From assembly GCA_013203465.1 (NCBI GenBank), contig JABMNR010000036.1, forward strand, positions 1 through 44,489: DNA of 44,489 bases. Direction: 5' to 3'. Positions 40,424 through 42,500 of this stretch are shown here, piece after piece. Numbering within the stretch: position 1 is the stretch's first letter; each line of letters begins with the position of its first letter. Both the position numbers and the translations under genes were made by a program. The notes beneath the pieces were generated by a model. It was not told the origin of the DNA, did not search any database, and saw nothing but the letters and a program-made list of their open reading frames with translations. The DNA is from Alphaproteobacteria bacterium (GTDB lineage Bacteria > Pseudomonadota > Alphaproteobacteria > Thalassobaculales > Thalassobaculaceae).

Positions 40424-40506
40424 GACGAACGCATATAGAGGTTGCGCCACATAGACACCAGAACTGCTTGACCCCACCGGCCGCTTGTGGCTCAACTCTT
40501 AACACC

Positions 40507-40566
40507 ATGATGTTTGGAACCTTGACGCTAGGCCTCGGTCTACGACTTATGAACCCGGCTCTCTGA
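40507..40566 (+). CDS. leuL: Leucine leader peptide of the leuA attenuator
   Basis: Short reading frame of 19 codons, MMFGTLTLGLGLRLMNPAL, with six Leu codons (TTG, CTA, CTC, CTA, CTT, CTC), ending 257 bases before leuA on the same strand. No ribosome site precedes it. A TTGACC box (40468-40473) and a weak -10 (TCAACT, 40492-40497) would put the transcript start at about 40504, so the mRNA may begin at or next to its ATG, as known for alphaproteobacterial trpL. Stalling at Leu codons under leucine shortage would change folding downstream. A hairpin (40554-40578) overlaps its end. Confidence 0.72.
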   Translation: MMFGTLTLGLGLRLMNPAL

Positions 40567-40823
40567 GGAGAGACCGGGACAGAGTCCGTCGCGCAGTGCG
40601 TCCACCCCGTAGGTTCCGGAGCCGGCAATGATCGGCGTGTATTCTTACGAAATCCCTGGCACCACATTCCGTCATCGCCGGACCCGTGTGTCTTGCGTTG
40701 AGGCGAATTCGGTGACGGACGTGCCGACGGCCATCATCACCCGAGACACCACGATACGACGAGGCGCCCCGGCCCGACCACGTTCGGGCCGGATCTGATC
40801 GTCCGGCGCCACAGGAGAGTCCC
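40567..40823 (+). promoter_or_regulatory. leuA leader RNA with candidate attenuation hairpins
   Basis: Transcribed leader between the Leu-rich peptide and leuA. Hairpins seen: 40554-40578 (CCCGG/CCGGG plus TCTCT/AGAGA, one bulge) overlapping the peptide stop, and 40769-40792 (9-bp stem, 6-base loop) flanked by GGCGCC repeats, 19 bases before the AGGAGAG ribosome site. No U-tract follows the second hairpin, so control could be by Rho, by blocking the ribosome site, or by a terminator I cannot see by eye. The strong terminator in the neighbourhood is after leuA, not here. Confidence 0.5.
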
Positions 40824-42500
40824 ATGCCGCATACCATGTCCCCTTTGCAGTACCGCCCCTATCCGACAGTCGATCTGCCCGACCGAACCTGGCCGAGCAA
40901 GGTTATCGACAAGGCGCCAATCTGGTGCTCGGTCGATCTGCGCGACGGCAACCAGGCGCTAGTCGACCCGATGGACGGGCCGCGCAAGCGCCGGATGTAT
41001 GATACTTTGGTCAAGATGGGCTTCACCCAGATCGAGGTTGGTTTTCCCTCGGCCTCCGACACGGATTTCAGCTTCGTCCGGCAGTTGATCGAGGAGGATC
41101 TGATCCCCGACGGCGTGACGATCCAGGTGTTGACCCAAGCCCGCGAGCCACTGATCGACCGTACCTTGGAAAGCCTGGTCGGCGCCAAGAGCGTCATTGT
41201 CCATCTGTACAACTCGACCTCGGAGTTGCAGCGTCGCGTGGTGTTCCAGCAGGATCAGGCCGGCGTGAAGAAGATCGCCACCGACGGTGCCGAGATGATC
41301 CGGGATCGTCTCGGCGTGCTGAAAGGCACCGATGTTCAGTTGCAATACTCGCCGGAGAGCTTCACCGGGACCGAACTCGATTACGCCTTGGAGGTTTGCG
41401 AGGCGGTGATGGACGTTTGGATGCCGATCACCGACAACAAGATAATCATCAATTTGCCGTCCACGGTCGAGACGTCGACGCCCAATATCTTCGCCGACCA
41501 GATCGAGTGGATGCACCGCCACTTCACCCGGCGTGATCGCATCGTGCTGTCGGTGCACCCGCACAACGACCGGGGTACCGGCGTGGCGACGGCCGAGTTG
41601 GCGGTGATGGCGGGCGCCGAGCGGATTGAGGGCACGTTGTTCGGTAATGGCGAACGCACCGGCAACGTCGATTTGGTGACCCTGGGGCTGAACCTGTTCA
41701 CCCAGGGTGTCGACCCCGGGTTGGATTTCTCCGACATCAACGCGTTGATGGAAACCGCCGAGTACTGCAACCAGCTGCCGATCCACCCCCGCCATCCCTA
41801 TGCCGGTGAGTTGGTGCACACCGCGTTCTCGGGCTCGCATCAGGACGCCATCAACAAGGGCATGAAGGCGATCAAGGAGTCGAACAAGGAGATTTGGGAG
41901 GTGCCATACCTGCCGATCGATCCAGCCGACATCGGCCGGGATTACGAGGCGATCATTCGGGTCAACTCGCAGTCGGGCAAGGGGGGGATCGCCTACATCC
42001 TGGAGACCGACCACCATATCCGCCTGCCCAAGCAGTGGCAGGCACAGTTTAGCCAGGTGATCCAACGGCTGACCGATGCCTCCAGCAAGGAGATCAACTC
42101 GGCCGAAATCTGGGAAGCTTTCGAAACCGAATACGTGACCCAGCCGAGTGGCCGCTTCGCATTACAATCCTTCGAGGTAAACCGGGTGGTGGGATCGACC
42201 AAAGTGGTGCGCGTTCGGGCGGAAGTGATCTGTGACGGCGAGGCCCATGTTCTGGAGGCCGAGGGTAATGGGCCGGTCAACGCGTTTTCCAAGGCGATGC
42301 GTGATGCTTTTGGGCTGACGTTCAAGCTCAAGGACTACGCCGAACACACCCGCTCGGTCGGTTCCGACGCCGAGGCCGCCGCCTATATCGAGCTCAAGGC
42401 ACCGGATGAGAACGGCGAGAGCGTGTTCGGCGTCGGCATCGACACCGACATCACCATGGCCCCGGTCAAGGCGGTGATCAGCGCCTGCAACCGCCTGTAA
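40824..42500 (+). CDS. leuA: 2-isopropylmalate synthase
   Basis: Protein of 558 residues of the long (actinobacterial-like) LeuA type. It condenses acetyl-CoA with 2-oxoisovalerate, the first step of leucine synthesis. Catalytic barrel marks: WCSVDLRDGNQALVDPM (metal Asp), EVGFPSASDTDF, SVHPHNDRGTGVATAELA (metal His pair), EGTLFGNGERTGNVD. The C-terminal regulatory domain for leucine feedback begins near residue 440 (FALQSFEVNRVVG). AGGAGAG lies 6 bases upstream of ATG 40824. Preceded by a Leu-rich leader and followed by a terminator, so probably a single-gene transcript. Confidence 0.95.
   Translation: MPHTMSPLQYRPYPTVDLPDRTWPSKVIDKAPIWCSVDLRDGNQALVDPMDGPRKRRMYDTLVKMGFTQIEVGFPSASDTDFSFVRQLIEEDLIPDGVTIQVLTQAREPLIDRTLESLVGAKSVIVHLYNSTSELQRRVVFQQDQAGVKKIATDGAEMIRDRLGVLKGTDVQLQYSPESFTGTELDYALEVCEAVMDVWMPITDNKIIINLPSTVETSTPNIFADQIEWMHRHFTRRDRIVLSVHPHNDRGTGVATAELAVMAGAERIEGTLFGNGERTGNVDLVTLGLNLFTQGVDPGLDFSDINALMETAEYCNQLPIHPRHPYAGELVHTAFSGSHQDAINKGMKAIKESNKEIWEVPYLPIDPADIGRDYEAIIRVNSQSGKGGIAYILETDHHIRLPKQWQAQFSQVIQRLTDASSKEINSAEIWEAFETEYVTQPSGRFALQSFEVNRVVGSTKVVRVRAEVICDGEAHVLEAEGNGPVNAFSKAMRDAFGLTFKLKDYAEHTRSVGSDAEAAAYIELKAPDENGESVFGVGIDTDITMAPVKAVISACNRL

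Follow-up and report, generated by a model that had tools for sequence, protein, structure and literature searches.

The window, that is, the whole analysed stretch of 44,489 nt from an alphaproteobacterium of the Thalassobaculaceae, carries on its forward strand leuA for the long form of 2-isopropylmalate synthase (40824–42500, 558 aa; PRK03739, TIGR00970, LeuA_dimer), preceded by the Shine-Dalgarno sequence AGGAGAG at 40813–40819. Further upstream on the same strand lies a candidate leaderless leader ORF (40507–40566), which starts with ATG at 40507, runs for 19 codons, encodes the peptide MMFGTLTLGLGLRLMNPAL and ends with TGA at 40564–40566. This is the mini-ORF to which the preliminary description of the locus had drawn attention, and its six Leu codons are indeed of four kinds with CTA used twice (TTG, CTA, CTC, CTA, CTT, CTC). 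An equal Leu fraction is reached by only 2 of the 416 ATG mini-ORFs of 12–40 codons in the window. Two CTA among six Leu codons is unusual, since the share of CTA among the Leu codons of 21 long, G+C3-rich ORFs in the window (some of them possibly spurious) is 2.7%. The weight originally laid on this codon can be kept only in part: CTA is rare in the window, but CTA codons vary among relatives, so their rarity is not an essential feature of the leader, and the invariant codon is CTT at 40546–40548. Compared with aligned relatives, the window's leader has six additional bases at 40531–40538 (one extra Leu-Gly pair).

A -35 box TTGACC lies at 40468–40473 on the forward strand, 39 nt 5' of the leader ATG, and its TTGAC is aligned in the family. 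It is followed, with a 17-nt spacer, by a weak -10-like CTCAAC (40491–40496, forward strand); because this -10 is poor, a sigma-70 scan called no promoter. In a wider set, 62 of 137 leaders have TTGAC at -35 to -39 relative to their ATG, and it is rare elsewhere, the exact TTGAC being seen in only about half of leaders. As described before, there is no Shine-Dalgarno sequence at the leader, and the mean anti-Shine-Dalgarno energy of the 137 leaders is -1.5 kcal/mol, compared with -2.1 for a control 30 nt upstream and -4.8 for the downstream genes. The constant spacing of TTGAC and the lack of a Shine-Dalgarno sequence support the earlier proposal of a leaderless start near the ATG; the leaders are probably translated in this mode, with AUG at or near +1.

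The untranslated spacer to leuA (40579–40812, forward strand) shows little conservation past ~60 nt. The leuA start is 246 nt and its Shine-Dalgarno sequence ~235 nt past the hairpin around the leader stop. No intrinsic terminator was found between this hairpin and leuA, where the longest T run is 2, in line with the lack of a U-tract remarked on earlier. A terminator scan of the leader strand returned a single candidate at 40621–40636, whose stem is 5 bp long and whose T stretch is interrupted, and a generic scan gave two weak terminator-like sites in all. Throughout the leuA family no U-tract follows any conserved hairpin.

Heptamer, hairpin and long stem of the leuA leaders

For the window's family, we traced LeuA through 60 relative genomes and a set of named genomes, Thalassobaculum litoreum, Nisaea and SAR116 bacteria among them. 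Most relatives have a mini-ORF ending in LxLRLxxPAL, or near it, ~110 to 290 nt 5' of the leuA start codon, and the ending LxLRLxxP is kept down to ~67–70% LeuA identity, so the Leu codons whose loss in relatives would have spoken against the leader are in place. The preliminary description had missed what is best conserved here: the heptamer CGA-CTT-A at 40543–40549 (forward strand), identified from alignments A1 and A2 and a key-codon census, whose CTT (40546–40548) we call the key codon; a hairpin that begins 4 nt 3' of it at 40554–40578 (forward strand; CCCGGCTCTC-TGAG-GAGAG-A-CCGGG) and encloses the leader's stop codon within its loop; and a second element in the same genome, considered below. 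In family alignments the outer CCCGG/CCGGG of the hairpin is nearly invariant and the inner pairs covary.

The family alignment has a constant order: TTGAC and, near the ATG, a -10; then CGACTTA with hardly any variation; then four free bases; and lastly CCCGG...CCGGG, whose loop holds the stop or lies close to it. Among the leuA leaders recovered from the window's family the hairpin is present in 27 of 27, CTT-A in 26 and a CGA preceding CTT-A in 24. The codon 5' of CGA is Leu in 29/32 de-duplicated leuA leaders and is written with five synonymous codons, so that leucine itself appears to be selected at this place; the key codon, in contrast, is always CTT in leuA leaders, which points to an added constraint on RNA or decoding. 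Some relatives of the SAR116 type keep CAA-CTT-A and the hairpin while most of the other Leu codons are lost, and in one of them (G006, L102) CTT itself is lost. Two CTT elements precede a short-form leuA (L207 in G099 and L200 in G165, the latter by blast match only); their hairpin differs (CCCCTGA...TCAGGGG) and has the stop codon in the 5' arm.

Outside the hairpin, the fold of the window has a long basal stem in which a 5' arm inside the leader ORF (40513–40522) pairs with a 3' arm at 40611–40620. Two further blocks of this stem join 40524–40528 with 40598–40602 and 40544–40548 with 40582–40586, all on the forward strand. To assess it across genomes, the 5' arm of each leader was set against its own 3' region and the pairing energy was compared with that of shuffled partners. 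Matched pairing was stronger, with z -6.5 in the leuA class and -10.7 in the class of an AHAS-like gene described below, z-scores that sequence relatedness inflates. By this comparison the coding arm of the leader is predicted to pair with downstream RNA. The folding energy of the whole 337-nt leader is no better than that of shuffles (z -0.85), so the case rests on comparison and not on folding energy. RNAalifold on plain alignments returned the hairpin alone in most subsets, and the long stem in the Thalassobaculum-like subset. When the helix termed P4 is forced into a single common register, it pairs in 51–68% of cells with a fit uneven across classes, partly because the classes seem to use differing registers.

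The element before other branched-chain amino acid genes

A covariance model (R1) built from 25 leuA leaders only gave further matches within the family and the class. Among them were elements beyond leuA, in which CGA-ATT-A replaces CGA-CTT-A, before ileS and before a gene whose product has ~100 residues. These ATT elements were found despite the model, as it came from leuA leaders alone. A second model (R2), made from the 65-row alignment A2, matches 99 of 385 sampled genomes of the class. Outside the class it matched 0 of 47 genomes of the same phylum, and in a 299-genome sample of the phylum all matches were in Alphaproteobacteria. In general plan the element is a short ORF that contains CGA-NTT-A-N4-hairpin. 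In 136 of 144 elements an ATG no more than 60 nt upstream can be read through to CGA, in its frame, without meeting a stop; each other frame gives 9/144. From such conservation we infer that the leaders are translated. A frameshift reading of the heptamer was rejected, since neither a slippery pattern nor a stop recurs consistently.

The key codon varies with the gene it precedes. In a census of 195 matches, which are not independent, CTT stands before leuA in 47 of 47 cases, and ATT stands before ileS in 62 and before the gene for the ~100-residue protein in 68; leuA with ATT and ileS with CTT do not occur. After removal of near-duplicates 29 leuA, 56 ileS and 54 AHAS-like cases are left, and dozens of families show the pattern. 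In two instances (L256, L266) ATT seems to precede leuA; the gene there is best taken for that of a citramalate synthase, downstream of an AHAS-like gene, as checked for L256. ATT was also found before ilvA, cimA and a ribF-type gene, which were counted as isoleucine genes. Upstream of one ilvA (threonine ammonia-lyase) there are two ATT elements 200 nt apart (L380, L335; G086). The preliminary description suspected an unusual mechanism; the lack of a U-tract terminator, together with a heptamer and hairpin common to the whole class, bears this out.

An open-codon pattern search in 58 genomes gave 24 matches with T at the second codon base, nearly all of them ATT, CTT or GTT; the control, the same pattern reversed, gave a handful. 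The remaining second bases yielded 29 scattered matches, 11 of them from one genome, and no recurring codon. Key codons for other amino acids were accordingly rejected, as no codon recurs outside the branched-chain set. No Rfam family, Leu_leader and T-box included, matches at the element at permissive thresholds, and R1 gave no match on the actinobacterial leuA loci tested. In two genomes tandem modules, CTT then GTT in one reading frame, stand before the AHAS-like gene (L205 and L154 in G194, L190 in G064); the census lists these three as GTT twice and CTT once, and it is possible that such a tandem senses Leu plus Val. A variant hairpin, CCCGGCCTGA...GGCCGGG after CGA-ATT-A, was seen in L388, L302, L285 and L379 (G068, G196, G077) and in L366 (G072); the genes that follow are, by eye, a small P-loop kinase-like gene (L388, L379) or a SnoaL-like gene (G072).

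At normal thresholds neither Pfam nor NCBIfam gives a match for the ~100-residue protein. The best of its weak matches are to ACT domains and acetolactate synthase small subunits, which leaves the label 'AHAS-small-subunit-like', here AHAS-like, tentative. Next downstream of these genes (L145–L202) there is often a Nudix-like gene (by eye) or cimA. The second element of the window's genome (L236; G000:C31:15616-15683) has the key codon ATT and belongs to this class; its leader sequences TCTCCA and ATCGGT are complementary to TGGAGA and ACCGAT at the AHAS-like start site. Across the class, pairing of the leader arm with the Shine-Dalgarno region has z -5.3 and -5.8, and when a ribosome is modelled at the key codon the openness of the ribosome-binding site rises from 0.34 to 0.47 (up in 26 of 38 leaders, down in 6). 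This suggests that the AHAS-like leader masks the Shine-Dalgarno sequence and may act by translational attenuation, through a ribosome stalled on a hungry codon. Many leaders of this class (L150, L165, L172 and similar) have no stop in the hairpin, and their ORF runs ~20–30 nt past the downstream start codon, an overlap that suggests translational coupling or blocking. In the ileS class the leader pairing reaches 18–40 nt 5' of the start (z -4.6).

A putative leucine sensor and its possible routes to leuA

We consider it quite likely that the leader senses leucine through the ribosome translating it, in that stalling at the key codon would lead to alternative RNA structures and raise leuA expression in starvation, and that it belongs to a modular family. 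Transcription would start at the leader ATG or a few bases from it, and the ribosome would load at the 5' end without a Shine-Dalgarno sequence. When charged tRNA-Leu is short, the ribosome would halt at the Leu cluster, the decisive halt having CGA in the P site and CTT (40546–40548) in the A site, ~8 nt 5' of the hairpin. Thus placed it would cover the 5' arm of the long stem and prevent its pairing with RNA past the hairpin. When leucine is plentiful, the ribosome would translate as far as the stop, within the loop of the hairpin, and leave, and the long stem would close. The two outcomes would be two RNA structures, with higher leuA expression in the starved cell. The key codon would name the amino acid sensed: CTT for leuA, ATT for ileS and the AHAS-like gene, and GTT as a second module.

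The sensor role at leuA is well supported by what can be read from the compared sequences, namely the ORF and its frame, the promoter distance, the heptamer, the hairpin, the match of codon and gene and the covarying stem; from these we infer that the ribosome stalls, which way regulation runs and by what route the signal reaches leuA. A broader proposal, that the class has modular leaderless leaders in which one NUU codon after CGA and before a standard hairpin sets Leu, Ile or Val, that modules may stand in tandem and that the output, partly start-site unmasking, works without a U-tract, seems to us reasonably probable.

For the output at leuA, Rho-type termination would be the likeliest, mRNA stability would come next and translation last. 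A sensor that works through Rho-dependent termination in the naked 230-nt spacer, where a stalled ribosome would alter fold or coupling so that RNA polymerase passes, is plausible, if short of an even chance. The long untranslated spacer of the leuA class (median 238 nt), which has no U-tract terminator, fits it, and tna and the mycobacterial cys leaders are precedents or proposals for leaders without a terminator (PMC1262725). The rut-like mark of such termination, a C-over-G bubble, does not, however, rise above shuffled sequence in 24 leuA spacers, and in two genomes the spacer is only 46–47 nt long. The sensor could also act on mRNA stability, the ribosome parked at the 5' end and the long stem protecting the transcript from RNase E or RNase III or exposing it to them; we regard this as rather unlikely. 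It is suggested by the strictly common parts lying at the very 5' end, while the distance from element to gene varies in the whole family from about 40 to >300 nt, which would fit an output for which the 3' side does not matter. Against it, the AHAS-like class shows Shine-Dalgarno pairing instead.

That architecture makes translational attenuation at leuA worth weighing, with the leader arm masking the leuA Shine-Dalgarno sequence and stalling setting it free. We hold it to be improbable, as ~235 nt lie between this sequence and the hairpin, it takes part in no conserved pairing with the leader and its predicted openness in the leuA class is 0.48 both free and with a stalled ribosome. The long stem of this class ends ~200 nt 5' of leuA. 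Pairing of the leader or of the 3' arm with the leuA start was rejected as well, only borderline values having been obtained among 356 tests.

An attenuator of the classical transcriptional kind, its terminator and antiterminator hairpins like those of the enteric leu and rhizobial trp leaders, is slightly less probable still. Clustered Leu codons before the first gene of leucine synthesis are what it would have, and the stop-codon hairpin resembles a pause hairpin, but the conserved hairpins of the family are not followed by a U-tract and the Leu_leader family of Rfam does not match. In some 30 of the 108 Ile-type leaders no Ile codon other than the key ATT occurs up to that point. Classical attenuators are not built on one lone regulatory codon. 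The same 30 or so leaders, without any other Ile codon before the key one, together with a single fixed specifier-like codon and a conserved purine in a structured RNA, would agree with direct binding of tRNA or amino acid by the RNA, as in a T-box or a riboswitch, the ORF being a by-product. We find this very improbable, given a key codon in frame with ATG in 136/144 elements, neighbouring Leu synonyms that vary and no match to the Rfam T-box. Chance or a compositional artefact, to which a leader fold no better than shuffles might point, is refuted by the conservation and the match of codon and gene, with model matches before pathway genes besides, and keeps a negligible probability.

Relation to known systems

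With the trp, leu and his attenuators the present leaders have in common a short translated leader with codons of the product amino acid and a hairpin around the leader stop. They differ in that no U-tract terminator was found, in having one position-fixed key codon after CGA, in a heptamer and hairpin common to leu, ile and val genes, and in the lack of an Rfam match. Of the general marks of attenuators, the short ORF whose codons specify the amino acid under control is present, while a U-tract terminator with an antiterminator is not. Within Alphaproteobacteria, the Sinorhizobium meliloti trpL (peTrpL/rnTrpL) is leaderless, with AUG at the transcript start (PMC7298713). The present leaders resemble it as amino-acid leaders of the same class with AUG at or near +1 and without a Shine-Dalgarno sequence, as judged here by promoter distance and Shine-Dalgarno energies; trpL, in contrast, has Trp codons in direct succession and, besides, a transcription terminator. 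A further mark of the trpL type is a terminated leader sRNA that works in trans. We know of no sequence element common to trpL and the leuA leader. Another alphaproteobacterial leader, uORFC-8-2 before cysS in Rhodobacterales, has tandem Cys codons and an intrinsic terminator (PMC8632094). As a synthetase leader with hungry codons it is similar, and these tandem codons and this terminator set it apart.

In the actinobacterial LEU element, Leu codons pair with the leuA Shine-Dalgarno sequence and a pseudoknot has been proposed (Seliverstov 2005, PMC1262725). Like our leaders it has Leu codons before leuA, a base stem formed by the leader and no clear terminator; its base stem, however, reaches the leuA Shine-Dalgarno sequence, which in our case is not reached. 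Translational attenuators of the erm type, in which a ribosome stalled on the leader opens the next Shine-Dalgarno sequence, are a fitting parallel for the AHAS-like class but not for leuA, with the difference that the inducer here would be a hungry codon and not a drug. T-box leaders also have one specifier codon that names the amino acid and are found at synthetase and biosynthesis genes, whereas here the ORF would be translated and no Rfam T-box matches. In effect, the leader family would do for branched-chain amino acids what the T-box does, with the ribosome as reader.

In the literature searched, neither this element nor one common to leu, ile and val genes is described, and some leuA, ilv or ileS members may be among the predictions of Vitreschak 2004 (FEMS Microbiol Lett). 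If our reading is true, Alphaproteobacteria own a branched-chain amino acid control element, absent from Rfam, in about a quarter of 385 genomes. The element also helps to annotate numerous leader ORFs that lack annotation, as well as a small protein resembling an AHAS subunit. One known RNA may be touched by it: the Brucella sRNA BASRCI27 (RF02600) has a sub-threshold match directly 3' of the ileS elements L319 and L322, outside the element itself and in hosts that are presumably rhizobial, and since the match adjoins these elements, the sRNA may be an ileS leader region.
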